This document shows positions 2,916-53,556 of a stretch of 64,000 nucleotides of DNA, one piece after another (position 1 is the stretch's first letter; each line of letters opens with the position of its first letter). Both the position numbers and the translations under genes were made by a program. This DNA is from Rhodopseudomonas boonkerdii (lineage in GTDB: Bacteria > Pseudomonadota > Alphaproteobacteria > Rhizobiales > Xanthobacteraceae). Location of the stretch: positions 1,550,001 through 1,614,000 of the forward strand of contig NZ_CP036537.1 of assembly GCF_021184025.1 (NCBI RefSeq), in the 5' to 3' direction. The notes under the pieces are model-generated. The model did no database searches, was not told the DNA's origin, and saw nothing but the letters and a program-made list of their open reading frames with translations.

Positions 2916-3560
2916 CTAGGCAGCCGCTTTGTGGCGTGCTTGCTCGGCCTTGAACAGTTTGAACTCCTCGCTAACTGCCCGCACCACGCTTGGTCGTTCG
3001 CGCATCCTGCCGTGATAGGCCTTGATCGCCGGCCATTGATGGAGATCGAGCTGCGGGATCACCGTGGTCCAGTTCAGCACCGTGGTGAGATAGGCATCTG
3101 CAACACTGAAGCGCTCCAGCAGGAATTCGCGACCTTTGAGATGGTTCTCGAGATAATCGAGCCGCGAGCGGCCGGTCTCCAGCGCATAGGCCTTGGCCTC
3201 GGCCGGCGTTTTCTTCGAGAGCTGTGGCTGGAACAGCGCCTTGTGTAGTTCGGTCCCGATGAAGCACAGCCACTGCTGCAGTCGGCTGCGCTCCATGCCC
3301 GTTCCGGCCGCGATCGCGGAGTCCGGAAAATGCTCGGCCACATACTGGAGGATCGCCGCATTTTCGGTGAGGATCACACCGTCGTCGGTGCGTAGCGTGG
3401 GCACCAGGCCGAGCGGATTGATCGCGTGGAAATCCGAACCGTCCTGCAGCAGCGTCTTGCTCGGTGGATCGACCTCAATGAAGCGGGCTTCTCCTTCTGC
3501 CTCATAAAGCGCGATGCGGGTGGCCATAGAGCAAGCCATCGGCGAGAAATACAGATCCAT
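2916..3560 (-). CDS. Beta-class-like glutathione S-transferase
   Basis: 214 residues. The N terminus carries Cys at position 10 in PMACSMATRIAL, the position of the catalytic Cys of beta-class bacterial GSTs such as E. coli GstA. The NPLGLVPTL cis-proline loop and TENAAILQYVAE glutathione-binding segment follow. The ATG at 3560 is chosen because it gives the canonical GST N terminus; the frame is open much further upstream but that sequence is unrelated. First gene of a two-GST operon, divergent from the TetR gene starting at 3660, which is the likely regulator. Confidence 0.9.
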   Translation of the reverse strand: MDLYFSPMACSMATRIALYEAEGEARFIEVDPPSKTLLQDGSDFHAINPLGLVPTLRTDDGVILTENAAILQYVAEHFPDSAIAAGTGMERSRLQQWLCFIGTELHKALFQPQLSKKTPAEAKAYALETGRSRLDYLENHLKGREFLLERFSVADAYLTTVLNWTTVIPQLDLHQWPAIKAYHGRMRERPSVVRAVSEEFKLFKAEQARHKAAA

Positions 3561-3659
3561 GGGTGCTTCCTTTGCTGACTGGTGCAGTGCAGTGGTGCAG
3601 TCGATTGATTTTTGTACTGTCTCGCATAATAATTGGACGGTCAAGGAATTAATTGCGGT

Positions 3660-4310
3660 ATGGTACAAAAAAGAAAGCCGAGCCCTGCGGCGGCAAGCGG
3701 GGCGGGAGAGGGTAAGCGCCGAGGGCGGCCGCGGGCGTATGAGCCGGATGTGGCCATCGGTCAGGCACTCGATCTGTTTCGCCGCACCGGCTATGCCGCC
3801 ACATCGCTGGACGATCTCAGCACGGTCACCGGCATGAACCGGCCGAGCTTGTATGGCGCCTTCGGCGACAAGCGGGCGCTCTACATCAAGAGCTATCAGC
3901 GTTATCGCGATGACTACACTGCCGAGGTGATCGCGCTGTTCAAAGCGGATATCGATATCCGCGAACGGCTGCGCCGCTTCTACGCCGCCGCGCTCGATAT
4001 CTACACGACCGGGGATGTCGATCCGCGCGGCTGCTTCGCCGTGATGACGGTGGCGTCCGATGCCATCGCCGATCCGGAAATCCGGGCGATGATGGTTGAA
4101 AGCTTCAAGGAACTCGACGATGCCTTTGCCTGGTGCTTCCGCACCGCGATTGCACGCGGCGAATTGCCGGAAACCGCCAATGTCGATGTGCTGGCAAAAA
4201 TGGCATCCGCCTTGCTGAACCTGTCGTCGATCCGCGCACGTGCAGGGATTCCGCGGGCCGAACTCGACGCCATCGTGGATGAAGCCATCACCCAGCTCTG
4301 CCGCGCATGA
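3660..4310 (+). CDS. TetR/AcrR family transcriptional regulator
   Basis: 216 residues. A basic N-terminal tail (QKRKPSPAA...KRRGRPR) precedes a TetR helix-turn-helix at about residues 30-80 (LDDLSTVTGMNRPSLYGAFGDK). The C-terminal ligand domain contains a Cys (DPRGCFAV) seen in several AcrR-type repressors. The ATG at 3660 is preferred over an upstream in-frame ATG at 3633, because the first residues then resemble family members. It is divergent from the two-GST operon with a 99-base shared promoter region, so it most likely represses that operon and itself in response to an electrophile. Confidence 0.85.
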   Translation: MVQKRKPSPAAASGAGEGKRRGRPRAYEPDVAIGQALDLFRRTGYAATSLDDLSTVTGMNRPSLYGAFGDKRALYIKSYQRYRDDYTAEVIALFKADIDIRERLRRFYAAALDIYTTGDVDPRGCFAVMTVASDAIADPEIRAMMVESFKELDDAFAWCFRTAIARGELPETANVDVLAKMASALLNLSSIRARAGIPRAELDAIVDEAITQLCRA

Positions 4311-4356
4311 TGCGGGAACCCGCCTGCGCGTCACGTCACAATAATTTCAGCTAACC

Positions 4357-4383
4357 TGTCGGCATCGTCTTGCGCGACCCGTC
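4357..4383 (+). promoter_or_regulatory. Predicted ECF42-type promoter for the DGPF-sigma operon
   Basis: TGTCGG (4357-4362), a 17-base spacer, then CGTC (4380-4383), ending 19 bases before the DGPF start codon. The same 6-17-4 arrangement occurs at 6102, 11824 and 14120, each upstream of a related stress gene. It agrees with the TGTCGA-like -35 and CGA/TC-like -10 reported for ECF42 sigma factors. If right, the sigma factor activates its own operon. Confidence 0.6.
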
Positions 4384-4402
4384 TTTCAATCAAGGAGCAC
4401 CC

Positions 4403-4768
4403 ATGCTGTACGCCATTCTCTGCTACCATGATGAAGCCGTCGTCGGCGGCTGGTCAAAAGATGAGGACGATGCCGTGATGGCGAAGCTCGCCGTCGTACA
4501 TGGCAAGCTGGCCCAGCAGGGACGGCTCGGCCCGGTGGCGCGGCTGCTGCCGACCACGGCGGCCACCACGCTGCGCAAGGACGATCCTCCGGTGGTGCTC
4601 GATGGTCCGTTCGCGGAGACGAAGGAGCAATTGCTCGGCTTTTATGTCGTCGAGGCGGAGAATCTGGACGGCGCGCTCGAGATCGCGCAGGAGCTCGGCC
4701 GCGCCAATCCTGGCGGCGCCTATGAAATCCGTCCGATCGGCGTCTTTCACGGAGCGTTTCAGTCATGA
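4403..4768 (+). CDS. YCII-related DGPF-domain protein, ECF42 partner
   Basis: 121 residues with the defining motif DGPFAETKEQLLGFYVVE at about residues 69-86, followed by the ferredoxin-like half ending in EIRPIGVF. A good ribosome-binding site (AAGGAG) lies just before the ATG at 4403. The stop overlaps the start of the sigma factor gene by 4 bases, so the two are coupled. Family knowledge: DGPF proteins are the conserved genomic partners of ECF42 sigma factors and resemble YciI; their biochemical role is not settled. Confidence 0.9.
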   Translation: MLYAILCYHDEAVVGGWSKDEDDAVMAKLAVVHGKLAQQGRLGPVARLLPTTAATTLRKDDPPVVLDGPFAETKEQLLGFYVVEAENLDGALEIAQELGRANPGGAYEIRPIGVFHGAFQS

Positions 4769-6036
4769 CCGATGTCGCCTGGATCGATGCGGCCCTGACC
4801 ACGGCGCGTCCCCAGGCGCTCGGTGCACTGCTGCGCTATTTCCGCGATCTCGACACCGCGGAGGAGGCGTTTCAGAACGCATGTATTCGCGCGCTCAAGA
4901 CCTGGCCGCAAAACGGCCCACCGCGCGATGCCGCCGCGTGGCTGATCATGGTCGGCCGCAACACTGCCATCGACGATCTCCGCCGCAGCAAGCGACAGCA
5001 ACCGTTACCGGACGACGATCGTGCGATCTCCGATCTCGACGATGCCGAGAGCGAACTCGCCGACCGGCTCGACGGCTCGCATTATCGCGACGATATTTTG
5101 CGGCTGCTTTTCATTTGCTGCCATCCGCAATTACCGGCAACCCAGCAGATCGCATTGGCGCTCCGCATCGTTTCCGGCCTCACGGTGAAACAGATCGCCC
5201 GCGCATTTCTTGTCAGCGAGGCCGCGATGGAGCAGCGCATTACCCGCGCCAAATCCGCCATCGCAAAGAACAAGGTTCCGTTCGAGGCCCCGGGTGCACC
5301 GGAGCGGAGTGAACGGCTCGCCGCTGTTGCCGCCATGCTTTACCTGGTTTTCAACGAGGGCTATTCCGCCGGCGGTGAAAGCGCCGGTCTGCGTGCGCCG
5401 CTCTGCGAGGAGGCGATCCGTCTTGCTCGCCTGCTGCTCAAGCTGTTTCCCGCCGAGCCCGAGATCATGGGCCTTGCAGCATTAATGTTACTGCAATATG
5501 CGCGTTCGAGCGCGCGCTTCGATGCCAACGGCGCAGTGATCCTGCTGGAAGATCAGGATCGCTCGCTGTGGAATGGCAAGATGATCGCCGAAGGTCTGGC
5601 GCTGATCGACAAGGCCATGCGCCATCACCGTACCGGCGCCTATCAGATCCAGGCGGCCATTGCCGCGCTGCATGCGCGCGCTGCGACGCCCGCGGATACG
5701 GACTGGGCGCAGATTGAGTTGCTGTATGGCTCGCTCGAAATCCTGCAGCCGTCGCCGGTAATCACGCTTAATCGTTCGGTGGCAGTGTCGAAAGTGCGGG
5801 GGCCACAGGCAGCGCTCGATATGATTGCGCCATTGGCTACAAAACTCGCCAATTACTTTCACTTTTTCGGTGTGCAGGGCGCTTATCTGCTGCAGCTCGG
5901 CCGCAACGACGAGGCCCGGGAAAGTTTCAATCGGGCTATTGCGCTGGCGAACACCGCCGCCGAAGCGGATCATATTCGCAAGCATATCGACCGGCTGATG
6001 GAAGACAGCAAGGAAAAGATCGTCGCAAAGCAGTAA
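4765..6036 (+). CDS. RNA polymerase sigma factor, ECF42-type with TPR-like C-terminal extension
   Basis: 423 residues. Sigma region 2 lies at about residues 10-75 (AEEAFQNACIRALKTWP... NTAIDDLRR) and region 4 at about 110-165 (LTVKQIARAFLVSEAAMEQRI). The remaining ~240 residues form a helical extension (LYLVFNEGYSAG, then TPR-like helices) that is the hallmark of the ECF42 group and is known there to be needed for activity. There is no anti-sigma gene; regulation is thought to run through the extension or the DGPF partner. Predicted target promoters in this window are described separately. Confidence 0.92.
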   Translation: MTDVAWIDAALTTARPQALGALLRYFRDLDTAEEAFQNACIRALKTWPQNGPPRDAAAWLIMVGRNTAIDDLRRSKRQQPLPDDDRAISDLDDAESELADRLDGSHYRDDILRLLFICCHPQLPATQQIALALRIVSGLTVKQIARAFLVSEAAMEQRITRAKSAIAKNKVPFEAPGAPERSERLAAVAAMLYLVFNEGYSAGGESAGLRAPLCEEAIRLARLLLKLFPAEPEIMGLAALMLLQYARSSARFDANGAVILLEDQDRSLWNGKMIAEGLALIDKAMRHHRTGAYQIQAAIAALHARAATPADTDWAQIELLYGSLEILQPSPVITLNRSVAVSKVRGPQAALDMIAPLATKLANYFHFFGVQGAYLLQLGRNDEARESFNRAIALANTAAEADHIRKHIDRLMEDSKEKIVAKQ

Positions 6037-6101
6037 AGTGGAGCGGGCCGCGGAGGCCGAGCCTCCACCGGGAACCCCGTCTTGCGAAAATCTTCAGGCG
6101 A

Positions 6102-6128
6102 TGTCGGGTCTGGAGGTGCCCATTCGTC
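6102..6128 (+). promoter_or_regulatory. Predicted ECF42-type promoter for the VOC gene
   Basis: TGTCGG at 6102-6107, a 17-base spacer and CGTC at 6125-6128, 69 bases before the ATG of the VOC gene. It lies downstream of the sigma factor stop, so the VOC gene appears to have its own sigma-dependent promoter and not to rely only on read-through. Confidence 0.6.
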
Positions 6129-6197
6129 CTTGAGGCAGTGTCACGGCATGGCCCCCCGGCGATGCGAGATTGTTGACCAAACCCGAAGGAAACGATC

Positions 6198-6617
6198 ATG
6201 CAGATCAATCCCTATCTCCATTACAATGGCAACTGCGAGGAAGCCTTCAAATTCTACGAGAAGGCGATCGGCGCCAAGGTCGATGTCATCATGCATGTGG
6301 AAGGCTCGCCGGCTGCCGAACAGATGCCGCCCTCGATGGCAAAAAAGGTTCTGCATGCGCAGATCAGCATCGATGGCGAAGTCATCATGGCATCGGATTC
6401 TCCTCCGGACTATTTTGAGAAGATGCAGGGATTCTCCGTCTGCCTGCAGGCCAAAACGCCGGCTGAAGGGGAGAAATGGTTCAACGCGCTGGTCGATGGC
6501 GGTATAGCGAAGATGCCGTTCGCCGCCACGTTCTGGTCAAAGGGTTTTGGCATGTGCATCGACAAGTTCGGTGTGCCCTGGATGATCAACACGGCGCAGG
6601 ACTGTCCCGATCAGTGA
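6198..6617 (+). CDS. VOC family protein (PhnB/3-demethylubiquinone methyltransferase-like fold)
   Basis: 139 residues. It begins with the typical VOC strand PYLHYNGNCEEAFKFYEKAIG and ends with FGVPWMINT, as in PhnB-like members of the vicinal oxygen chelate superfamily. Ribosome-binding site GAAGGA precedes the ATG. Members of this subgroup sit beside DGPF/ECF sigma genes in many Proteobacteria and Actinobacteria, and are candidate glyoxalase or resistance-like enzymes, but the reaction is unknown. The shared promoter motif supports membership in the same regulon. Confidence 0.88.
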   Translation: MQINPYLHYNGNCEEAFKFYEKAIGAKVDVIMHVEGSPAAEQMPPSMAKKVLHAQISIDGEVIMASDSPPDYFEKMQGFSVCLQAKTPAEGEKWFNALVDGGIAKMPFAATFWSKGFGMCIDKFGVPWMINTAQDCPDQ

Positions 6618-6627
6618 TGTTGTCCGG

Positions 6628-6654
6628 CTTCTCCCCGCGATATGCGGGGAGAAG
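6628..6654. terminator. Strong hairpin after the VOC gene
   Basis: CTTCTCCCCGC and its perfect complement enclose a 5-base loop, starting 11 bases after the VOC stop. No T tract follows, so termination may be partial or the hairpin may protect the 3' end. Confidence 0.5.
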
Positions 6655-6689
6655 CATCACTGGTTCATATGAACTGAAAAGTAGCTGAA

Positions 6690-7889
6690 ATGTCTTCGTT
6701 TGCTCGCAATGCCATCGTGCTCGGTCTGCTCTGTGCCGTCGGTCCCTTCGCCATCGATATGTATCTGCCGGCGTTGCCGGATATTGAAAGCGATCTCGGT
6801 GCCACCACGTCGGCGACACAGCTGACACTGACCTCTTACTTCATCGCCTTCGGTCTGTGCCAGATCGCTTACGGTCCGCTCTCGGACGTCTATGGTCGCA
6901 AGGCGCCGCTCTATGCTGGCCTCGCGCTGTTCGTTGCGGGTTCGGTCGGCTGCGCATGGGCGCCGACCGTGGAATGGCTGATCGCGTTTCGTTTCGTTCA
7001 GGGCCTTGGCGCTGCGGCCATGGGTGTGATCCCGCGCGCCATCATTCGCGATCTGCATACGGGCGTCGAGGCGACGCGGCTCATGTCGCTCGTGATGCTG
7101 GTATTCTCGGTCTCACCCATCCTCGCGCCGCTCGGTGGCAGTGCGCTGATCGTGCCTTTCGGCTGGCGCGCGGTGTTTGTTGCCGTGACGGTCGCCGCAC
7201 TGATCGCTACAGTGCTGCTGGCCACGATGCTGCCGGAGACGCGGCCTGTGCATGAACGCATCCGCGGCGATGTCCGCAGCGTGCTCGGTCATTTCGGTGT
7301 GCTGTTTCGCGACTGGCACTTCCTCGGCCTCACTTTTATCGGCGGATTCGGCATGTCCAGCTTCTTCACATTCCTGTCGATGTCGTCCTTCGTCTACATC
7401 AAGACCTATGGCCTCACGCTGGCGGAATACAGCGTGGCCTTCTCGATCAATGCTGTCGGCTTTATCGGCGTATCTCAGCTTGCGGGTCGACTCGGCGCGC
7501 GTTTCGGCATGGGGCGCGTGGTGATGGGCGCCGTTGCGGCCTATGCTTTCTTCGCGATGTTGCTGCTGGCGCTGACGCTAGCCGGCTTTACCAGCCTTTG
7601 GGTGCTGATCCCGCTGCTGTTTACGTCCTTCGCTTTTCTCGGTCTCGTGATCCCGTCGACTATGGTGTTGTCCTTGGAGGAGCATGGGCCGATCGCCGGC
7701 AGCGCCAGCGCGCTCGGCGGTACACTGCAGATGCTGACAGGCGGCGTGGTGATTGCTGTCGCCGGCCTGTTCTTCAACGGCACGTCGCTGCCGATGGTCG
7801 CGACCGTCGCATTGACGGCAATGGCTGCACTCGCCATCACGATGGTCACACTGCGTCCGCGTGAACTGTCGCCGCAGCTCGCCGAATAG
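6690..7889 (+). CDS. Bcr/CflA-type MFS multidrug exporter
   Basis: 399 residues with about 12 membrane helices. The N terminus PFAIDMYLPALP is the signature of Bcr/CflA drug exporters (motif D1 of 12-helix DHA1 pumps), and motif A appears as GPLSDVYGRKAPLYAG at about residues 67-82. Function by family: proton-driven export of drugs such as bicyclomycin or chloramphenicol, or of amino-acid derivatives. It has no good Shine-Dalgarno sequence and lies 72 bases after the VOC gene, with a hairpin between. Confidence 0.9.
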   Translation: MSSFARNAIVLGLLCAVGPFAIDMYLPALPDIESDLGATTSATQLTLTSYFIAFGLCQIAYGPLSDVYGRKAPLYAGLALFVAGSVGCAWAPTVEWLIAFRFVQGLGAAAMGVIPRAIIRDLHTGVEATRLMSLVMLVFSVSPILAPLGGSALIVPFGWRAVFVAVTVAALIATVLLATMLPETRPVHERIRGDVRSVLGHFGVLFRDWHFLGLTFIGGFGMSSFFTFLSMSSFVYIKTYGLTLAEYSVAFSINAVGFIGVSQLAGRLGARFGMGRVVMGAVAAYAFFAMLLLALTLAGFTSLWVLIPLLFTSFAFLGLVIPSTMVLSLEEHGPIAGSASALGGTLQMLTGGVVIAVAGLFFNGTSLPMVATVALTAMAALAITMVTLRPRELSPQLAE

Positions 7890-7917
7890 GCTAGGTTGCA
7901 TCACCCGGGGAAGAGGG

Positions 7918-8400
7918 ATGAAGCGAATGACGTTCGGTCTGGCCTTTGCCGCAGCGATCGGATCGGGGCTCATGGCCGGACTGTTCTTCGTCTTCTCGGT
8001 GACGATCATGAGCGCGCTCGGCAAATTGCCGGCGCCAGCCGGTATCGCCGCGATGCAGTCGATCAATACCACGATCTTGAGCCCGCTGTTTCTCACGGCA
8101 TTCATGGGGACGGCGCTTGTTTGTGTCGTCCTCGCGATCATCGCGATGCTGAATTGGGCCGGGCCGGCATCCGGCTGGCTGGTCGCGGGCGCGCTGCTTT
8201 ACGTGGCCGGCACATTTCTCGTTACCATCGTCTTCAACGTGCCGATGAACGATGCGCTGGCAGCCTCCGCCGCCGATAGCGGCGAAGCTGCCGCCATCTG
8301 GTCGCGTTACCTTTCGGTCTGGACCGGCTGGAATCACGTCCGCACAGTGACTTCGACCGCCGCGCTCGGTGCGTTCATCTGTGCGCTGAGGCAGCTTTAG
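7918..8400 (+). CDS. DUF1772 family membrane protein (anthrone-oxygenase-like)
   Basis: 160 residues with four predicted membrane helices (about 5-27, 50-75, 80-105, 140-158). The conserved NVPMNDALA and WNHVRTVTSTAALGAF segments are typical of DUF1772, a family distantly related to fungal anthrone oxygenases. ATG at 7918 follows GAGGG. It starts 28 bases after the exporter gene, so the two may be cotranscribed. The role is unknown. Confidence 0.8.
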   Translation: MKRMTFGLAFAAAIGSGLMAGLFFVFSVTIMSALGKLPAPAGIAAMQSINTTILSPLFLTAFMGTALVCVVLAIIAMLNWAGPASGWLVAGALLYVAGTFLVTIVFNVPMNDALAASAADSGEAAAIWSRYLSVWTGWNHVRTVTSTAALGAFICALRQL

Positions 8401-8423
8401 GTACTGATGAATATCGCATTGTG

Positions 8424-8547
8424 TCCCGGGCGCGCTGCAGCGCGCAACGCTGCTGCGCAGAATCGGGACCGTGACGAACTCTGGCGTTTGATGCGGTCCC
8501 GGCTCAGCAGTGTGCCACTTCGTGATGCACTGCGTCCGGGACAAAGC
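8424..8547. repeat. Two half-units of a TGTCCCG palindromic repeat
   Basis: Unit one (8420-8472) runs from TGTCCCGGGCGCGCTGCAGCG to GAATCGGGACC; unit two (8495-8546) runs from GGTCCCGG to GCGTCCGGGACA. Each has GC-rich self-complementary ends. A related unit lies at 29609-29661. They sit between the convergent DUF1772 and SDR genes, where such elements usually act as terminators or mRNA stabilisers. Confidence 0.6.
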
Positions 8548-8566
8548 TCTTTTGATAGGTCAGACT

Positions 8567-9379
8567 CTAGCCATTAATCCCCTCGCGCCGCAGCGTCGGA
8601 AGACCGATGCCGGTGGCGTCGAAGCCGCCATCTACCGCGAGCATCTGGCCGGTGATGTAGCTGGCGCGGTCGCTGCACAGATAGAAAATGGCGTCCGCCA
8701 GTTCGTCCTCGCCGCCGTAGCGATTCAGCGGAATCGCATCATGATAATCGGCGCGGATCGCCGGTGTATGCACCGCCTTGGCCATGGCGGTTTCCACCGG
8801 ACCAGGCGCCACCGCATTGACGCGAATGCCGAGCAACGCGAGCTCGACGGCGGACTGTTTGGTGAAATGAATGATGCCAGCCTTGCTGGTGCCGTAAGCG
8901 ACGCGCAGCGTGGACGCGCGCAGCGCCGAGATGGAAGCAATGTTCACGATGGCGCCGCCGCCATGTTCGCGCATCAGCGGTGCGGCCGCCTTGGTGCAAA
9001 GGAACGGGCCGGTGAGGTTCACGGCCATGATGCGCTCCCATTCCTCCAGCGTTGTTTCGAGCAGCGGCTTGAAATTCGCGATGCCGGCATTGTTGACCAG
9101 CGCATCGAGCCGGCCGAAGCGGGCCTGCACGGCGGCGAAAGCCCGCGTCACCGCGGCGGCGTCGGAGACGTCGGTATGCAGTGCCAGCGTGTTGTCGGGA
9201 TCGTTCAGTGCCTTGGCGCTGGTATCCAGCAAGTCGCGCTCGATATCGAGCAGAGCCACGCGATAACCCTCGCCGAGAAACCGTTTCGCCACCGCGAGCC
9301 CGATGCCGCGCGCGGCGCCGGTGACGAGTACGACTTTACGAATGTTGGCGTCAGCTTTGGTCATGTCCTGCCCTGTCAT
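8567..9379 (-). CDS. SDR family NAD(P)-dependent oxidoreductase
   Basis: 270 residues with the Rossmann cofactor motif TGAARGIG (about 20-27), NNAG at about 95, catalytic Ser in SISALRAS, and the YGTSKAG active-site Tyr/Lys at about 165. The C-terminal ITGQMLAVDGGF is typical of classical SDRs. An alternative ATG at 9364 would shorten it by five residues and has a better spaced AGGA. Substrate unknown. Confidence 0.9.
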   Translation of the reverse strand: MTGQDMTKADANIRKVVLVTGAARGIGLAVAKRFLGEGYRVALLDIERDLLDTSAKALNDPDNTLALHTDVSDAAAVTRAFAAVQARFGRLDALVNNAGIANFKPLLETTLEEWERIMAVNLTGPFLCTKAAAPLMREHGGGAIVNIASISALRASTLRVAYGTSKAGIIHFTKQSAVELALLGIRVNAVAPGPVETAMAKAVHTPAIRADYHDAIPLNRYGGEDELADAIFYLCSDRASYITGQMLAVDGGFDATGIGLPTLRREGING

Positions 9380-9452
9380 CCTTGATCGTTGCAGGGCTGT
9401 TTAGAGAACGCGAACGGCCGGGACAAGCCCGGCCGCAACGTCATGCTGGATC

Positions 9453-11684
9453 TCAGAACCGATAGGTCGCCGAGCCTAGGACCGTCCGTCCTACGCCCGG
9501 GAAGCAGTCGCCGCGGGCGAGGCAGGCGGTCATGTGGCGCTTGTCGGCGAGGTTGCTTGCGTTGATCTGCAGCCGCCACGGACCGGTCTCGTATTTGATC
9601 ATGGCATCGAACAGCGTGTAATCCGGCGTCTGCAGCGTATCGGTGCCGTCCCAGGACGCGCCGACATAGCGCACGCCGCTGCCGATAGTGACCTCACGCA
9701 GGCCGAGGGCCGACAGCCGGTAGGTGCCCCACAGCGACGCCTGCTGTTCCGGCACGATCTCGATGTGCTTGCCGGCATTGTCGCCGCTCTCCACCTTGGC
9801 GTCGAGATAGGTATAGGAGCCGATCAGGTTGAGATCAGGCGTCACTTTGGTGATGACTTCCAGCTCGACGCCGCGAATGCGGACCTGGCCGGTCTGGACC
9901 GAGATCAGCGGATTGGTCGGGTCGGACGCGAGGCGGTTCTTCTCGACTGTATCGAAGATGGCGCCGTTGATCGCAGTCCCCGGGAACGGATTGTATTTGA
10001 AGCCGACCTCGTAAATTTCGCCGCGCTGCGCCTTGCAGATGTCGGCGCAGACATTGGCGCCGAACACGGGATTGAAGGACGTCGCATAGGTCACGTAGGG
10101 ATTGAAGCCAAACGGCGTCTCATACATCAGGCTGGCGCGGCCGGTGGTTGCCCGCGTGTCCTCGCTGGGGCTCCCGGCGAGGCGGCTGCCGACGAAATCC
10201 TGCCGGATGCCGAGGGTTGCGAGCCATGGGCCGGCGCGAAGCTGGTCCTGTGCATAGAGGCCGAGTTGATTCTGGCGCAGATGGGGATTGTCGAACAGCT
10301 CGGGGGCGATCGTCGTCGTGTAAACAGGCGCATAGAGATCGAACGGCGTCGGATCGAAGGCGCTCCCGATGCGGCTGCGTTCATTGACCTCGCGATAGTC
10401 CGCACCCACCAGCACCTTGTGGCTGACCGCACCGGTGAGGAATTTGAACTGCAGATTGTTGTCGATGGCGATCTGGTCGCGCGTTATCTGCTGATTGTCC
10501 AGGAACCGCGCAACCGTCCGGCGCTCAGGATCGAGATAGGGGTTGTCGGGATTCGAGAAACTGTCCGAATAGCCGGTGCGATAGATGCTCTCGATATGAG
10601 TGTAGCGCAGATTCTGCGTGAACTTCACAGCGTCGTTGAACGAATGCTCGAAGATGCTGCCGATGCCGGCGGTTTCGGCCTGGTACACGTCGTAGCCGGG
10701 ATAGCCGGTGAAGCGTGTGATGGGAATAAGACCGTTCGGACCGGGATAGAGCATGCCTTCATGCGGCATGAAACCGGTCCCGGTGCTCGACTTATCTTTC
10801 TGGTAAAAGCCCTGAAGGGTCCAGTTGGTGTTGGTGGTCGGCCGCCAGGTCAGCGACGGGGCGAGCAGGATGCGGTCGTCCGGCGTGAAATCGGTCTGCA
10901 GGTGACCGTCCCGGAACACGCCGACGAACCGATAGAGCCATTCGCCGTCCTTGGTCAGCGTCCCGGTCGTATCCATCTGAACCTGCTTGCGTCCGAAATT
11001 ATCGAACTGCACGCCGATCTCATTGAAGCCGTCCGCCCGCGGTCGCTTCGAGATCAGGTTGATCAGGCCGGCTACCGACGTGTCGCCATACAACACCGAA
11101 GGGCCGCGAAATACCTCGACGCGCTCCAGCATATAGGGGTCCTGCCGCCATTCGCCGAACTTGAAGGTGTTCACCGCACGGGTGCCGTCGAGGAAGATGT
11201 TGGGATCCTGACCGCGGACGCGCGGATAGTCGCCGCGCGAGTCCATGCCATAGGGGTCGGCGAGCACGCCGGGCACATAGCGTATGGCTTCCTGAACATT
11301 GGTGGCGCCCTGATCGGTCATGCGATCGGCGGTCACCACCGAGATCGATTGGGCGGTCTCGCGCAGCGGCGTGTCGGTCTTCATGCCGGTGCCGCTCTGG
11401 CTGGCGAGATAGCCTTGAACCGGGCCTGTGCCACTTTCGAAGGCTGCGGCTGACGCCACGGCCGCGGGCGCTCTGGTCGCGTTGCGTGCGGATGCGCGAC
11501 GGCTTGTCGTGGAGCGCGATGCTTGCGTGCGCTGCGGACGGGCAGGTGTGGCCCGAGGCTTCGCCTGTTCGACGACGACGGGAGGAAGCTGGTTCTGCGC
11601 CTGTGCAGGAGCTTCGATAGCGAAGGCCGTCAGCACGGCAAAGGACGCTCCGACGACTCGCTGCGATGTACTGAAATTGAACAT
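9453..11684 (-). CDS. TonB-dependent siderophore receptor
   Basis: 743 residues. A signal peptide (FNFSTSQRVVGASFAVLTAF...AQAQ) is followed by a low-complexity Arg/Pro/Thr linker, a plug domain (AQSISVVTADRM..., VQEAIRYVPGV) and a 22-strand barrel ending in GSATYRF with terminal Phe, as outer-membrane barrels require. The ATG at 11684 with GGGGGT upstream is preferred to a GTG at 11696. It belongs to the ferrichrome/FhuA-type siderophore receptors and imports a ferric siderophore; no siderophore biosynthesis or inner-membrane transporter genes are nearby. Confidence 0.92.
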   Translation of the reverse strand: MFNFSTSQRVVGASFAVLTAFAIEAPAQAQNQLPPVVVEQAKPRATPARPQRTQASRSTTSRRASARNATRAPAAVASAAAFESGTGPVQGYLASQSGTGMKTDTPLRETAQSISVVTADRMTDQGATNVQEAIRYVPGVLADPYGMDSRGDYPRVRGQDPNIFLDGTRAVNTFKFGEWRQDPYMLERVEVFRGPSVLYGDTSVAGLINLISKRPRADGFNEIGVQFDNFGRKQVQMDTTGTLTKDGEWLYRFVGVFRDGHLQTDFTPDDRILLAPSLTWRPTTNTNWTLQGFYQKDKSSTGTGFMPHEGMLYPGPNGLIPITRFTGYPGYDVYQAETAGIGSIFEHSFNDAVKFTQNLRYTHIESIYRTGYSDSFSNPDNPYLDPERRTVARFLDNQQITRDQIAIDNNLQFKFLTGAVSHKVLVGADYREVNERSRIGSAFDPTPFDLYAPVYTTTIAPELFDNPHLRQNQLGLYAQDQLRAGPWLATLGIRQDFVGSRLAGSPSEDTRATTGRASLMYETPFGFNPYVTYATSFNPVFGANVCADICKAQRGEIYEVGFKYNPFPGTAINGAIFDTVEKNRLASDPTNPLISVQTGQVRIRGVELEVITKVTPDLNLIGSYTYLDAKVESGDNAGKHIEIVPEQQASLWGTYRLSALGLREVTIGSGVRYVGASWDGTDTLQTPDYTLFDAMIKYETGPWRLQINASNLADKRHMTACLARGDCFPGVGRTVLGSATYRF

Positions 11685-11779
11685 ATTTGCTTGCACCCCC
11701 GATTGATCTTCCGCGGGTTCGGTAACAAGCGCGTGAGACGATGGGAACGCGTGGAGGCCATTTCCACAGGCTGCCAGAT

Positions 11780-11816
11780 TAGTATCGCTCTATGTTTGAT
11801 TGAGAATAATTGGCAG
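11780..11816 (-). promoter_or_regulatory. AT-rich candidate promoter and iron-box region of the receptor gene
   Basis: An AT-rich island 95-130 bases upstream of the receptor start contains TTGAGAATAATTGG, a partial match to Fur/Irr-type boxes (GATAATGATAATC-like and ATTCTAAA-like sites). The match is incomplete, so this is only a candidate for the iron control expected of a siderophore receptor. Confidence 0.3.
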
Positions 11817-11823
11817 CGAGGCC

Positions 11824-11850
11824 TGTCGGAACGGTTCGTGTCCGTTCGTC
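11824..11850 (+). promoter_or_regulatory. Predicted ECF42-type promoter for the GST gene
   Basis: TGTCGG at 11824-11829, a 17-base spacer, CGTC at 11847-11850, 27 bases before the ATG. Same geometry as the sites at 4357, 6102 and 14120. Confidence 0.6.
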
Positions 11851-11877
11851 TTCCAGCAACACCATGCAGGAGGAACC

Positions 11878-12534
11878 ATGTCGCTCACGCTTCACTACCA
11901 CCCGCTGTCATCCTATTGCTGGAAGACGCTGATCGCTCTGTACGAGAATGATACGCCGTTCACGCCGCATGTGGTCAATCTCGGCGACGAGGCTGAGCGC
12001 GCGGCGTTGTTGAAACTGTGGCCCATCGGCAAGTTCCCGGTGCTGCAGGACGATGCGCGCAGCGAGGTCGTGCCGGAGTCTTCCATCGTCATCGCGTATC
12101 TCGATCGGTACTATCCGGGTAGCATACGTTTTATTCCCGACGGCGATCTCGGTCTGCAGGTTCGGCTGCGTGATCGCTTCTACGATCTGCATGTGCATGA
12201 TCATGTGCAGAAGATCGTCGGCGACAGGCTGCGTCCGCGGGATCAGGTCGATCCGTTCGGCGTCGAACAGGCGAGGGCGAAGCTGCGTACGGCCTGGGAT
12301 ATGATCGAGCACGATATGGCCTACCATGAATGGGCGATGGGTAGCGCCTTCACGCTGGCCGATTGCGCCGCGCTGCCGGCGCTGTTCTACGGCAACAAGG
12401 TGCTGCCGTTTGTCGAGACGCACAAACGCGTGGCGGCCTATCTTGAACGGCTGCTCGCGCGGCCGTCGATTGCGCGCGTCATCGCGCAGGCCGGTCCATA
12501 CTTCCACATGTTCCCGCAGGAGGCATCCGGATAA
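11878..12534 (+). CDS. Glutathione S-transferase family protein, predicted ECF42 target
   Basis: 218 residues. Thioredoxin-like N-terminal domain with HYHPLSSYCWKTLIAL (candidate Ser/Cys nucleophiles), a GKFPVLQDD cis-proline loop and PESSIVIAYLDRYYPG glutathione motif, then a helical C-terminal domain. A strong ribosome-binding site (AGGAGG) precedes the ATG at 11878. The predicted sigma promoter links it to the DGPF/VOC genes 5 kb away. The same subgroup of GSTs often accompanies DGPF clusters, but the substrate is unknown. Confidence 0.88.
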   Translation: MSLTLHYHPLSSYCWKTLIALYENDTPFTPHVVNLGDEAERAALLKLWPIGKFPVLQDDARSEVVPESSIVIAYLDRYYPGSIRFIPDGDLGLQVRLRDRFYDLHVHDHVQKIVGDRLRPRDQVDPFGVEQARAKLRTAWDMIEHDMAYHEWAMGSAFTLADCAALPALFYGNKVLPFVETHKRVAAYLERLLARPSIARVIAQAGPYFHMFPQEASG

Positions 12535-12680
12535 GCGATGCGGCTCTGTCCATGCCTTCGCGATGGTCAAGACATGGATGCCCGGTATTCGCTGGGAAGG
12601 ATGGGGAGTCCGATTTCATCGGCGATGTCACCTTCGCCAGAGCCCGTGAAGCAACCAGACCCGGGTTTCGGGCCAAGCTT

Positions 12681-12962
12681 TTAGCGGGGATACTCTGCCG
12701 ATCCAGCAAAAGCTCCCGTGCTGGCCGAACGGGACGTTCGGAATGCCATTACATTCGCGCAGGGCTCGCTAAGGTCCCGCTGATGCGAAATCAGGCAGGC
12801 CGTAATGCGGTCCACATCCGGGATCGATGACTGGCAAAGCCTGAATACGTCGGGCGTGCATGCGCGCCGCTGCTGCGGCGTGCCCTGCGACCAAGCCGGC
12901 TGGGCAGATGCGGCGGAGGTGAAAACCAAGGCGGCGACGGCGATACGCTGACTCAATGTCAT
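12681..12962 (-). CDS. Small exported cysteine-rich protein
   Basis: 93 residues. A clear signal peptide (about 1-25, ending SAQPAWSQG) is followed by one Cys-rich unit RRACTPDVFRLCQ...ITACLISHQRDLSEPCANVM, with Cys spacing like that of Golgi apparatus protein/GLG1-type repeats seen in many short periplasmic proteins of Bradyrhizobiaceae. The ATG at 12962 is preferred because it starts the signal peptide. A candidate promoter with an internal palindromic operator lies about 180 bases upstream. Function unknown. Confidence 0.75.
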   Translation of the reverse strand: MTLSQRIAVAALVFTSAASAQPAWSQGTPQQRRACTPDVFRLCQSSIPDVDRITACLISHQRDLSEPCANVMAFRTSRSASTGAFAGSAEYPR

Positions 12963-13139
12963 TCTGTGTCTCCAGGCGAGATCGTTACGTGTGATCAGTG
13001 TGTGGTTTCCGGCCGCTACGCGTTCCGGGTTGACTGCGCGTGCCGAAGGATCGCCAAGCCATGGCTCGCGGCATGTTGTCGATGCCCGTGCCACGGCAGG
13101 CGGAGGCCCCTATGCATCTAGGCCTCATCTACTCTGACC

Positions 13140-13167
13140 ATTAAAGTCATAATGACTAAAAAGTCAA
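13140..13167 (-). promoter_or_regulatory. Candidate promoter of the Cys-rich protein gene with operator in the spacer
   Basis: On the minus strand, TTGACT (13167-13162), a 16-base spacer and TTTAAT (13145-13140) form a good vegetative promoter. The spacer and -10 contain the perfect palindrome AGTCATAATGACT (13145-13157). A regulator bound there would block RNA polymerase. The transcript would have a leader of about 170 bases before the Cys-rich gene. Confidence 0.5.
13145..13157. promoter_or_regulatory. Palindromic operator candidate AGTCATAATGACT
   Basis: A perfect 13-bp palindrome whose core GTCA-N3-TGAC recurs at 14012-14022, just upstream of the adjacent TetR gene. The pairing suggests it is the TetR binding half-site arrangement. 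Confidence 0.45.
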
Positions 13168-13264
13168 TATGAAAATGCAGCCGCATGATCGCCCCGCCGG
13201 AACTCGTCCAGAGCGGTAAATTGCGGCGATCAATCTTGAGGAGCGCTGAACTCGGGCGGTATCT

Positions 13265-13975
13265 TCAGCCGGTTTTCTTCGGGTCGCGCGCTGCCGGGCG
13301 TTTGGGCTTCGCCGTACGATCCGGCAGGGCGGGCTGCGCACTTTCCTGCGGCGACGGCAGGGATGCGAGCGCGGATTTCACCTGGCGTGCATCGGCGCCG
13401 AGCGCGCGCAGGATCGCGGCGACCGTCGGTTCGCGGTCGTGTCGGGACAGCCGTCCCTCGCCATAGGCCACGGCCAGCTGAACCATGATGCCGACGATAA
13501 TTTCCAGGCTGAGTGCTGGTGACACGCCGCCGCCGAGGCTCTTCGACAATGCGCTGAGATCTTCGAAGACATACCGCTGGCGCGCGATGACGCTGCCGCT
13601 TGCTGATGTGGTGATCATCCGTGCGAGGGCGGCGGCCCATGCCGGATTGGCGATTGCCTTGTCGATCAGGTAGCCGCAACTGAAGGCGATACGCGACGCT
13701 GGGTCGCTGCGCGCGAGTCGCCCTGGTTGGAGCGCATCATCGACCGACGCGAGCAGCTCCTCCGCAACCACTGCCGTCAGCGACCGCAGATCGGCGAAAT
13801 GGACATAGAACGTTCCTTTCGCGACGCCGGCCTCCTTCACCACATCGTCCACGGTGACGGATTCCACCGCCTGACGGGCGAACAGCGCGTGGGCGGCAGC
13901 AATCAGCTGGGCCCGCGTCCTCGCCCGTTTCTCCCGGCCGATTTCGGCGCGGCGGACGGGGTCAACATTAGCCAT
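13265..13975 (-). CDS. TetR family transcriptional regulator
   Basis: 236 residues. The helix-turn-helix is at about residues 18-65 (SVTVDDVVKEAGVAKGTFYVHFADL), with a TetR-type ligand domain after it and a Pro/Lys/Arg-rich tail (DRTAKPKRPAARDPKK). The ATG at 13975 gives a normal N terminus. Two GTCA-N3-TGAC palindromes, one 37 bases upstream of its own start and one in the promoter downstream of the gene, suggest it represses itself and the small Cys-rich protein gene. Confidence 0.88.
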   Translation of the reverse strand: MANVDPVRRAEIGREKRARTRAQLIAAAHALFARQAVESVTVDDVVKEAGVAKGTFYVHFADLRSLTAVVAEELLASVDDALQPGRLARSDPASRIAFSCGYLIDKAIANPAWAAALARMITTSASGSVIARQRYVFEDLSALSKSLGGGVSPALSLEIIVGIMVQLAVAYGEGRLSRHDREPTVAAILRALGADARQVKSALASLPSPQESAQPALPDRTAKPKRPAARDPKKTG

Positions 13976-14011
13976 GGCATCACCGGGTGTTCGTTATCCG
14001 ATTGCCAGTAA

Positions 14012-14022
14012 GTCAATTTGAC
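14012..14022. promoter_or_regulatory. Candidate TetR auto-operator GTCAATTTGAC
   Basis: An 11-bp palindrome (one central mismatch base) located 37-47 bases before the TetR start codon, with the same GTCA...TGAC arms as the site at 13146-13156. Confidence 0.45.
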
Positions 14023-14119
14023 CAAAGCGTCTAGTCGCTCCATGGACGCAGATCGGGGGCGGCAGCAGCCTGTCCGCGCCCTAAGCGCGCCTCGGGTCCG
14101 GAAATAATTTCGCCGGTCA

Positions 14120-14146
14120 TGTCGGGCCGGCGGCAGCTGCTTCGTC
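14120..14146 (+). promoter_or_regulatory. Predicted ECF42-type promoter for the second DGPF gene
   Basis: TGTCGG at 14120-14125, a 17-base spacer, CGTC at 14143-14146, 36 bases before the ATG. Fourth copy of the motif. Confidence 0.6.
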
Positions 14147-29666: not shown

Positions 29667-32654
29667 CTACTCTTCCGCCGTCATCAATGCCGCATTACCA
29701 CCGGCTGCGGCGGTGTTGATGCTCACGGTCTGCTCGGTGGCGAAGCGCGTCAGGTAATGCGGGCCGCCGGCTTTCGGTCCGGTGCCCGATAGGCCAAAGC
29801 CGCCGAAGGGCTGTACGCCCACCACGGCGCCGATGATGTTGCGGTTCACATAGACATTGCCGACAGGCAGGCGCGCGATGGTCCGCTCGATCATGTCGTC
29901 GATGCGTGAGTGGATGCCGAGGGTGAGACCGAAGCCGGTGGCGGCGATGTCGTCCAGCACGCGGTCAAAATCCATGACGCGATAGCGCACGACATGCAGG
30001 ACCGGGCCGAACACTTCCTCGGTGAGTTGTTGGGCGCTGCTGAGTTCGAATATATGCGGTGCAACGAAGTTGCCGGATGGCGCGACACCGGCATGAAGCA
30101 GGCGCGCTTCCTGTTTCAACCGCGCGATATATGTATCGAGTTTCTGCTTCGCCTCTGAGTCGATGACAGGTCCTATATGGACTGCGGGATCGGTGGGATC
30201 GCCGATCTTCAGCTCGCGGGCGGCGCCGACGATCATCTCGATCACGCGCTCGGCCACGTCTTCCTGCAGAAACAGCAGTCGCAGCGCCGAGCAGCGCTGG
30301 CCGGCGGAGCGGAATGCGGAGGTGACCACATCGTCGGCGACCTGTTCGGGCAGCGCGGTGGCATCGACGATCATCGCATTGATGCCGCCGGTCTCGGCGA
30401 TCAGCGGAACGATCGGGCCATCCTTGGTCGCGAGCGTGCGGTTGATGGCGCGCGCCACGTCGGTCGAGCCGGTGAACACGACGCCAGCCGCTGCGGGATG
30501 CGCGACCAGCGCCGCGCCGATGCGGCCGTCGCCCTGTACGAGATGCAGCGCCTGCGCCGGTACGCCGGCTTCATACAGCAGTGCGATCGCCATGGCGGCC
30601 ACGCGCGGTGTTTGCTCGGCGGGTTTAGCGACCACGCTGTTGCCAGCCATCAGCGCTGCGGCGATCTGGCCGAGAAAGATCGCAAGCGGGAAATTCCATG
30701 GCGAGATGGCGACGAACACGCCGCGGCCGCGCAGTGCCAGCACGTTGCTCTCGCCGGTCGGGCCCGGCATGACTTCACCGGTGCCGAACAGCCTGCGGCC
30801 CTGCGCGGCATAATAGCGACAGAAATCGACGGCTTCGCGGACCTCGCCGAGGGCGTCGTCCAGCGTCTTGCCGCCTTCGTGCTGCAGCAGCGCAATGAAG
30901 GACGCACGGCGCTGTTCGAGCAAGCCGGCAGCGCGCGTCAACATTGCGGCACGCTGGTCCGCAGATGTTTGGTTCCAGGCCACGAAACCCGCTATGGCAT
31001 CGGCGATGGCCTTGCTGGCCTGCTCCGCCGTTGCATGCGGCGTCTGCCGGCTTGCCGGCTTGCTCGCCGCGACATCTGCCAGCAGCCGATCCAGTGCCTT
31101 GCGTTCGCCGAACTCTATCCCGGACGAGTTCGCGCGTTCAGCGCCATAGAGATCGCGCGGCAGCGGAATATGCGCATGGTTCGCGCGGCCTGCGCTGCCG
31201 ATCAGGTCCTCCGGCCGCTGCAGCAGGGTCGAGACAGGTATGGTCTCATCCGCTGCAAGGGCCACGAAGGACGAGTTGGCGCCATTCTCCAGGAGTCGCC
31301 GCACCAGATAGGCGAGCAGATCGCGGTGGCTGCCGACCGGCGCGTAAGTGCGCCAGCGGACGTCCGGCCGGTCCTTGCCGAGCTGCGCATAGAGCGCATC
31401 GCCCATTCCGTGCAGACGCTGGAATTCGTAGCCGCCATCGTCCGCAAATGCGAGGATGGTCGCCACCGTCAGCGCATTATGCGTGGCGAATTGCGGAAAG
31501 ACGCGCGGCCGCAACGCGAGCAGCTTCCGGGCGCAGGCGATGTAGTTGAGATCCGTCATCGCCTTGCGGGTGAAGACCGGATAGCCGTCCAGCCCGCGCT
31601 CCTGCGCGCGCTTGATCTCGGTGTCCCAGTAGGCGCCCTTGACGAGCCGCACCATCAACCGACGATCATGCTTGCGCGCCAAAGCATCGATATGATCGAT
31701 CACATCCGCGCAGCGCTTCTGATAGGCCTGGACCGCGAGCCCAAAACCGTCCCAGCCCGTGAGCGAATCCTCGGCGAGGACGGTGTCGATCACGTCGAGC
31801 GAGAGTTCGAGCCGGTCGGCTTCCTCTGCATCGACGGTGAAGTTGAGATCATAACGCTTCGCCTGCTGCGCCAGCGCGATCAGGCGTGGCACCAGTTCGG
31901 TCATCACCCGCCCGCGGCTGATGGCCTCGAAGCGCGGATGCAGCGCGGAGAGTTTTACGGAGATGCCCGGCCGATCGGGCAAAGGCTTGTTGCCAGCCGT
32001 GCGGCCGATGGCGTCGATGGCCGCGGCATAGGAATCGTAATAACGCTGCGCATCGTCCGCCGTGCGGGCGCCTTCGCCGAGCATGTCGTAGGAGTAGCGC
32101 GGCGCACGCCCGGCGCTTTTGCGCGCCCGGTCCAGCGCGTCGCCGATGGTTTCGCCGAGCACGAAATGACTGCCCATCAGCCGCATGGCCTGCCGCGTGG
32201 CCGCGCGCACCGCGGGGAGGCCGATGCGTTTGGCGAGACGGCCGAGCGTGCCCTGCGGCGTTTCGCCAGGCTGGATCGCGCGTTGCGACAGGCCGAGCGC
32301 CCAGGCGGAGGCATTGACCAGGAATGCGCTCGATCTGGTTTCATGATGGATGAAATCGCCCTCCGCCAGCTTGTCCTCGATGAAGGCATCGGCCGTGCGC
32401 GCATCCGGCACCCGCAGCAGCGCCTCGGCCAGCACCATCAGTGCGAGGCCTTCTCTCGTGGAGAGCGCATATTCCCGCAGCATGTCCTCGACGCCGCCGA
32501 ACCGGTCGTCGCGGGCGCGGACTGCCGCGATCAGCCGTACCGCCGAGGCGTCGATGCGGGCGTTCTGCTCCGGCGTCAGACTGGCCTCAGCCAGAAGCCG
32601 TGCGGCGATGATGGTATCGTCGGGCGCGTAAGGAGCCGAGAAAACGGGCATCAT
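29667..32654 (-). CDS. putA: Bifunctional proline dehydrogenase / L-glutamate gamma-semialdehyde dehydrogenase
   Basis: 995 residues: the minimal (type A) PutA as in Bradyrhizobium, without the DNA-binding N terminus of the E. coli protein. The FAD-binding PRODH barrel covers about 80-430 (VKLSALHPRFEA, VRLVKGAYWDTEIKRAQ, FATHNALTVA). The aldehyde dehydrogenase half covers about 480-980, with SPWNFPLAIFLGQIAAAL, the catalytic Cys in SAGQRCSALR and GGFGLSGTGPKAGG. It oxidises proline to glutamate in two channelled steps on the inner membrane. A regulator such as PutR is not adjacent. Confidence 0.97.
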   Translation of the reverse strand: MMPVFSAPYAPDDTIIAARLLAEASLTPEQNARIDASAVRLIAAVRARDDRFGGVEDMLREYALSTREGLALMVLAEALLRVPDARTADAFIEDKLAEGDFIHHETRSSAFLVNASAWALGLSQRAIQPGETPQGTLGRLAKRIGLPAVRAATRQAMRLMGSHFVLGETIGDALDRARKSAGRAPRYSYDMLGEGARTADDAQRYYDSYAAAIDAIGRTAGNKPLPDRPGISVKLSALHPRFEAISRGRVMTELVPRLIALAQQAKRYDLNFTVDAEEADRLELSLDVIDTVLAEDSLTGWDGFGLAVQAYQKRCADVIDHIDALARKHDRRLMVRLVKGAYWDTEIKRAQERGLDGYPVFTRKAMTDLNYIACARKLLALRPRVFPQFATHNALTVATILAFADDGGYEFQRLHGMGDALYAQLGKDRPDVRWRTYAPVGSHRDLLAYLVRRLLENGANSSFVALAADETIPVSTLLQRPEDLIGSAGRANHAHIPLPRDLYGAERANSSGIEFGERKALDRLLADVAASKPASRQTPHATAEQASKAIADAIAGFVAWNQTSADQRAAMLTRAAGLLEQRRASFIALLQHEGGKTLDDALGEVREAVDFCRYYAAQGRRLFGTGEVMPGPTGESNVLALRGRGVFVAISPWNFPLAIFLGQIAAALMAGNSVVAKPAEQTPRVAAMAIALLYEAGVPAQALHLVQGDGRIGAALVAHPAAAGVVFTGSTDVARAINRTLATKDGPIVPLIAETGGINAMIVDATALPEQVADDVVTSAFRSAGQRCSALRLLFLQEDVAERVIEMIVGAARELKIGDPTDPAVHIGPVIDSEAKQKLDTYIARLKQEARLLHAGVAPSGNFVAPHIFELSSAQQLTEEVFGPVLHVVRYRVMDFDRVLDDIAATGFGLTLGIHSRIDDMIERTIARLPVGNVYVNRNIIGAVVGVQPFGGFGLSGTGPKAGGPHYLTRFATEQTVSINTAAAGGNAALMTAEE

Positions 32655-53341: not shown

Positions 53342-53556
53342 GACAATCCCCGGTTTCGTTTCGTCCCTGGTGCACACCGTCTTGCGTCGCGGTGTCTTTA
53401 TTGCGTCCAATTAGATGCCGGAATGCCGAACGACGCAAGTACGGCTACAACTTTCGGACGAACCGAGATGGTTGATTTGCCAATGTATTTGCTGTCTTCA
53501 ATGGGACAAACACGCGCATCGCGCGCAATAATATCGACGTGACCGGAGGCTGTCCC

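Follow-up and report, generated by a model that had tools for sequence, protein, structure and literature searches.

Predicted ECF42 promoters joining DGPF, VOC and glutathione S-transferase genes in Rhodopseudomonas boonkerdii and their conservation in related genomes

Introduction

Sigma factors of the extracytoplasmic function (ECF) group ECF42 recognise promoters with a TGTCGA-like -35 box and a CGA/TC-like -10 box, and their targets are mainly DGPF genes in Streptomyces and stress and biofilm functions in Pseudomonas. Here, we describe copies of the motif TGTCGG-N17-CGTC in a 64,000-nucleotide stretch of Rhodopseudomonas boonkerdii (NZ_CP036537.1, positions 1,550,001 to 1,614,000; this whole stretch is called the window and its numbering is used unless genome positions are given). 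The motif stands before an operon of a DGPF gene and an ECF42 sigma factor gene, a VOC gene, a glutathione S-transferase (GST) gene and a second DGPF gene. These four sites are very probably promoters read by the single ECF42 factor encoded at 4765..6036, within a regulon that spans the genome and comprises at least nine units.

The closest described system is RpoE10, the ECF42 factor of Sinorhizobium meliloti. In PMC6180224, the sequences given for SMb20475, SMc01149 and SMc01151 all contain TGTCGG-N17-CGTC, overexpression of RpoE10 raised SMc01149-SMc01148 and SMb20475-SMb20474, and for two operons the start sites agree with a promoter at the motif. For the group in general, the review PMC8999054 proposes that ECF42 factors are switched by protein interaction through their repeat extension, names YCII as a suspected partner and describes the activating partner as unidentified.

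Results

Motif sites in the window

All ten fixed positions of TGTCGG-N17-CGTC are exact at four places, each on the + strand:

4357..4383, + strand: predicted ECF42-type promoter of the DGPF1-sigma operon, exact motif, also before 33 of 43 DGPF1 counterparts
6102..6128, + strand: predicted ECF42-type promoter of the VOC gene, exact motif, at the same position in the related locus L097
11824..11850, + strand: predicted ECF42-type promoter of the GST gene, exact motif, also before 9 of 11 GST counterparts
14120..14146, + strand: predicted ECF42-type promoter of DGPF2, exact motif, also before 9 of 14 counterparts

The genes behind these sites, with families assigned by Pfam matches as for all genes below, are:

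4403..4768, + strand: DGPF1, YCII-related (PF03795, E 7e-20), 121 aa
4765..6036, + strand: ECF42 sigma factor, 423 aa, with sigma regions 2 and 4, a C-terminal DUF6596 and a helical extension
6198..6617, + strand: VOC protein (PF06983 and PF00903; the nearest NCBIfam model is YjdN, below cut-off)
11878..12534, + strand: GST family protein, 218 aa
14183..14635, + strand: DGPF2, YCII-related (PF03795, E 1.4e-12), 150 aa

The number of bases between CGTC and the start codon is 19 for DGPF1 (ATG 4403), 69 for VOC (ATG 6198), 27 for GST (ATG 11878) and 36 for DGPF2 (ATG 14183), which confirms the coordinates, strand and 19-69-base distances given in a preliminary description of this DNA. The boxes fit the ECF42 consensus, and the ten positions and the spacing are those of the three S. 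meliloti sequences.

The expectation in that description of less than one copy by chance is borne out by shuffles, in which 0.30 exact N17 copies were expected in the window and the observed number of five was never reached; with the spacer widened to N16-18, seven copies were found against 0.92 expected. The fifth N17 copy (52733-52759, + strand) is antisense inside the minus-strand open reading frame (ORF) 52061-53410, the C-terminal part of which resembles P450. The earlier statement that there is no other intergenic copy is therefore correct for N17, and it is made here for that spacing only, with two N18 copies also lying in the window at 25773 (- strand) and 51274 (+ strand).

The ECF42 sigma factor and a paralog

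The protein encoded at 4765-6036 contains Sigma70_r2 (E 1.4e-11) and Sigma70_r4_2 (E 4.8e-11), the regions 2 and 4 expected of an ECF42 factor, followed by a TPR-like C-terminal extension of the size typical of the group (about 200 residues), with DUF6596 at E 2.3e-35 and TPR_2 below its cut-off. In the predicted structure the extension is helical throughout (mean pLDDT 81), and the solved folds nearest to the model are mostly TPR proteins, with weak E values around 1e-3, of which none is 0.001 or lower. As in other ECF42 loci a DGPF/YCII gene adjoins, with DGPF1 overlapping the sigma gene start by 4 bases. No anti-sigma gene was found beside the sigma gene, the Pfam-matched neighbours being GST, TetR, YCII, VOC, MFS, SDR and TonB receptor genes.

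The genome has no PF20239 match other than this factor, and the TGTCGG/CGTC sites of the genome therefore have one ECF42 reader. A second ECF42, 45% identical to the window factor and with its own DGPF gene, was found in four sister genomes (L284-L287), in each of which TGTCGT-N17-CGAC stands before that DGPF gene; no TGTCGG-N17-CGTC is present in the four 4-kb stretches.

Conservation at sigma-linked loci

Public genomes were scanned with the sigma protein, which gave 48 loci (846 kb) from Tardiphaga, Bradyrhizobium, Nitrobacter, Phenylobacterium, Rhodoplanes and others, Tardiphaga being the nearest named relatives. The ORFs linked to the sigma gene were clustered by sequence similarity, and Pfam was run on eight of their proteins. 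The loci contain 81 exact sites, 79 on the strand of the sigma gene, and 77 of the 81 lie at most 160 bases before an ORF of the DGPF, VOC, GST, DoxX, SRPBCC or DUF1428 clusters. The four exceptions are at 21101 in L063 (where the locus ends 127 bases further on), 8761 in L071, 822 in L082 and 6867 in L108, and seven of the 48 loci are without an exact site. The counts per gene, including those listed above, were made on counterparts with at least 130 bases upstream; for DGPF2, six of the seven counterparts with at least 60% identity have the exact motif. In two Rhodoplanes loci (L091 and L094), a motif-bearing DUF1428 gene was seen beside the sigma gene.

The motif was found within 200 bases of 3 of 21 VOC counterparts and within 900 bases of 12 of the 21, the low first count being due to another gene that intervenes between motif and VOC. 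In L061-L064 and L066, the first gene behind the site that follows the sigma gene belongs to the DoxX cluster (Pfam DoxX_2 for L061) and VOC comes next; in L065, an SRPBCC-like gene takes this place, again with VOC after it. In the window and L097 the intervening gene is absent, and the window promoter is 69 bases from VOC. The VOC promoter would have been retained in the window lineage after the intervening gene was lost, a loss rather than a gain. In L067 (9802-9868), L081 and L082, VOC immediately follows the sigma gene and the 900 bases upstream of VOC contain no exact motif, so that VOC may be part of the sigma operon there.

Predicted unlinked members

The genome (5.63 Mb, one contig) contains 33 exact N17 copies on both strands, and 16 of the reversed pattern. 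At this density 0.03 same-strand copies would be expected in 9.8 kb, where four are present. All 28 sites outside the window were fetched and the sequence following them inspected. For five of them, a gene that we count as a member begins 34-73 bases further on (genome positions, each with the exact N17 motif):

3465297, - strand: motif and AHSA1 gene
3897934, - strand: motif and DUF899 gene
4316151, + strand: motif and second VOC gene (VOC2)
4712114, - strand: motif and YCII/DGPF gene (DGPF3)
5139869, + strand: motif and DUF1428 gene

A sixth site, 90 bases before a gene of the GST_N_4 family (L051 168-896), marks a candidate tenth member. The predicted regulon is thus not limited to this region and is larger than in the preliminary description, with at least five unlinked genes that bear the motif. 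Each of the three DGPF-type genes in the genome has it; a fourth PF03795 gene (264137) has no listed site. A search for TGTCGR-N17-CGTY followed by a ribosome site and a start codon returned nine places, five known members and four others.

The unlinked promoters were compared in a genus set of 18 genomes, the own genome included, in which the exact motif was sought within 250 bases upstream. It was found in 13 of 13 loci for DUF899, 8 of 8 for AHSA1, 13 of 15 for DGPF3 (the remaining two end in CGTT) and 16 of 18 for VOC2, where the exceptions are one locus without a match and one second copy in a genome. The loci tested were 13 of the 27 returned for DUF899, 15 of 30 for DGPF3, 18 of 28 for VOC2 and 8 of 13 for AHSA1; those left out were lower-scoring paralogs and, for DUF899, also two fragments (L186 and L187). 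There are 51 exact hits in 53 loci of these four sets (AHSA1, DUF899, VOC2 and DGPF3), 50 of which have one in the tested upstream stretch. For DUF1428, the motif was present in all five genus genomes of the family sample, own genome included.

Across the same four sets, pairwise identity is 94-100% in the boxes and 48-78% in the spacers, with 30-58% in the 40 bases upstream and 52-86% in the 15 bases downstream. The alignment took the motif as its anchor, a choice that favours the boxes. Compared with shifted windows, the motif is the single best for DUF899 and DGPF3; it is equalled by shift -1 in AHSA1 and by shifts +1 and +2 in VOC2. The boxes therefore persist in orthologous promoters of relatives while the spacers change, which is the conservation that the preliminary description had proposed to look for.

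A survey of 119 genomes of the family used the strict form TGTCGG-N15-TTCGTC, with the reversed pattern as a control. In 68 genomes with a PF20239 match (374 Mb) there were 133 strict copies against 21 in the control, and in 51 genomes without ECF42 (203.5 Mb) 38 against 19. The strict form is narrow, since most DGPF3 and DUF899 promoters of the genus end in ACGTC.

Neighbouring genes and the exporter

The other genes in and ahead of the region, by Pfam, are:

2916-3560, minus strand: GST0, another GST ahead of the region
3633-4310: TetR1, another TetR gene ahead of the region
6690..7889, + strand: Bcr/CflA-type MFS exporter
8567-9379, minus strand: SDR
9453-11696, minus strand: TonB receptor
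13265-13975, minus strand: TetR regulator (TetR2)

The ORF 2916-4334 was rejected as a single protein, as its GST match starts near residue 253 and the preceding part is antisense to TetR1. No motif was found before the counterparts of GST0 (0/14), TetR1 (0/14), MFS (0/10), SDR (0/14), TonB (0/3) or GlgA (0/2), and there is no TetR2 counterpart in the 48 sigma-linked loci.

It had been suggested that the TetR gene, the receptor and the exporter between the members lie outside the regulon. For the receptor, the motif-free TonB counterparts agree with this. For the exporter the question is undecided, because the MFS gene starts 72 bases past the VOC stop on the same strand and the gap (6618-6689) holds a strong GC hairpin, with 11-base arms CTTCTCCCCGC/GCGGGGAGAAG, without a T run. 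The exporter could possibly be read through from the VOC promoter. Structured gaps, several of them differing in sequence, were also seen in relatives with a VOC-MFS pair.

Elsewhere in the window, a tRNA-Ala(cgc) call at 31676-31775 is 100 bases long, which is unusual, and is possibly false.

Discussion

At the level of sequence it is firm that the motif is there, where it stands, and that orthologous promoters keep it although their spacers change, and from this we infer that the window ECF42 factor reads the sites. This conservation and the published RpoE10 promoters of S. meliloti agree with the view, already taken in the preliminary description, that ECF42 promoters join the DGPF-sigma operon, VOC, GST and DGPF2. 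The sigma factor would read TGTCGG as the -35 box and CGTC as the -10 box, 17 bases apart, before at least nine units, four in the window (DGPF1-sigma, VOC, GST and DGPF2) and five elsewhere (AHSA1, DUF899, VOC2, DGPF3 and DUF1428). The signal would act through the C-terminal helical, TPR-like extension and not through an anti-sigma factor, the products would handle reactive or electrophilic small molecules, and the regulon would grow by gaining the promoter ahead of further small enzymes. The terms stress and detoxification are to be read as suggestions from the protein families.

Several observations weigh against a regulon of this kind. The exact motif is missing before 10 of the 43 DGPF1 genes, and six of these are also without a one-base variant (the other four, in L069, L080, L090 and L104, have one with spacing 17). 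In the own genome, 24 of the 33 copies precede no recognised member; the ten letters alone therefore predict poorly, and position and conservation are needed. In the family survey, the excess of the strict motif in sigma-bearing genomes was modest (p 0.015, rising to 0.06 once the own genus is set aside), and the genomes without ECF42 were still above the reversed control. Many genus genomes are closely related and some are identical with named loci; as the named loci and the survey genomes overlap, the conservation counts are not independent. In S. meliloti, SMc01151, which encodes YCII and is the first gene of the rpoE10 operon, has a motif that overlaps the mapped start, and it did not rise on RpoE10 overexpression (PMC6180224). 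This third site is therefore a putative promoter there, and the autoregulation proposed in the preliminary description is, for the DGPF1-sigma operon of the window, a possibility suggested by the position of the motif. DUF1428 is a further case, for which 80 genomes had a match and the 30 best loci were examined. Outside the genus, only 1 of 25 loci has the motif, and DUF1428 was rejected as a family-wide marker. The single locus belongs to a genome (G089) without a PF20239 match, which yet has the exact motif 38 bases before DUF1428:

L288 (G089:C1:3625000-3640000), 7167, minus strand: exact motif before DUF1428

The G089 motif could be a relic, a chance occurrence or a site used by another sigma factor.

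The last of these points to a wider alternative, that the sites are read by another ECF sigma factor, such as one of the ECF41 type or a general stress factor, and that the linkage with ECF42 is incidental. Boxes of this kind are common to ECF groups, as with the TGTCAC...CGTC promoter of the S. meliloti ECF41 factor RpoE9 (PMC6180224, available text), and G089 shows the motif in a genome without an ECF42 match. We consider this alternative improbable, as 33 of 43 loci have the motif ahead of the very operon that encodes ECF42, the S. meliloti sequences with the exact motif are assigned to an ECF42 factor in that same text, and the second, paralogous ECF42-DGPF pair has its own, shifted motif.

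Another possibility, which we judge very improbable, is that the motif is not a promoter, being the binding site of a repressor or an activator, for example of one of the two TetR proteins, whose genes adjoin two of the four sites. The two boxes form no palindrome, the spacer length is constant at 17 while its letters vary, all nine sites face their gene at a distance of 19-73 bases, TetR2 has no counterpart at the sigma-linked loci, and for two S. meliloti operons the start sites agree with a promoter. That a GC-rich ten-letter pattern fell before four genes by chance is hardly credible despite the 33 genome copies, most of which are not before a recognised member, since the boxes are retained in orthologous promoters whose spacers and flanks have diverged. 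Moreover, 9 of the 33 copies precede member genes, where about 1.5 would be expected ahead of any start in a genome of 5000-5500 genes (an assumed number), and among the first 30 sites listed for N16-18, of which 27 are N16 or N18, none stands ahead of an ORF of a member family.

Beyond a regulon read by the ECF42 factor, a more specific model can be put forward, which we regard as doubtful. In this model one anti-sigma-free ECF42 factor would run a dispersed response to reactive small molecules, composed of families that are otherwise uncharacterised (DGPF, DUF899, DUF1428, AHSA1, DoxX, VOC and GST), and the three DGPF proteins, made from promoters of the factor itself, would bind the C-terminal repeats of the factor interchangeably and so report the signal back.

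The nine conserved promoters tie domains of unknown function (DUF899, DUF1428 and DGPF) to one switch, relatives add DoxX_2, SRPBCC and PhnB-like VOC to the list, and the promoters could serve as ready reporters for finding the activating signal. As 68 of the 119 sampled family genomes have a PF20239 match, ECF42 is widespread. The TGTCGG/CGTC and TGTCGT/CGAC motifs form a natural specificity pair of two ECF42 paralogs of one genus, which can be used for questions of crosstalk. Earlier work had established the motif, the spacing, the sigma group and a link with YCII and glyoxalase-like genes; the additions made here are the wider target list and the contrast between the paralog motifs, for which no prior description was found in the open-access literature searched (most subscription papers lie outside it).

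Among known systems, the ECF42 factors of Streptomyces venezuelae (Sven_0747, 4377 and 7131) and Pseudomonas putida ECF-10 likewise have a long TPR extension at the C-terminus and a neighbouring YCII gene (PMC8999054). In Mycobacterium tuberculosis, the two most induced targets of the alternative sigma factor SigG are glyoxalase-like (VOC), a likeness drawn from their description in PMC3776920. The closest likeness is with RpoE10, as described in the available part of PMC6180224, which has the same motif and spacing, a YCII-sigma operon, and a motif-bearing PhnB-like VOC gene on another replicon. The promoter of this gene, SMb20475, is located on pSymB, and its protein is 43-44% identical to the motif-bearing VOCs of L075, L080 and L098 and 25% identical to the window VOC. 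The motif in S. meliloti also leads SMc01149 (a hydrophobic-ligand domain, taken as SRPBCC-like) and SMc01148 (glyoxalase-like), which can be compared with L065 and L080; this order resembles that of the relatives, and the window looks like it minus the first gene, as a resemblance of order only. The difference lies in the targets. Six genes rose with RpoE10, four of them twofold or more, whereas the window genome has nine motif units including GST, three DGPF, AHSA1, DUF899 and DUF1428 genes; in the same available text, GST, AHSA1, DUF899 and DUF1428 are not named as RpoE10 targets, the YCII gene being the exception.

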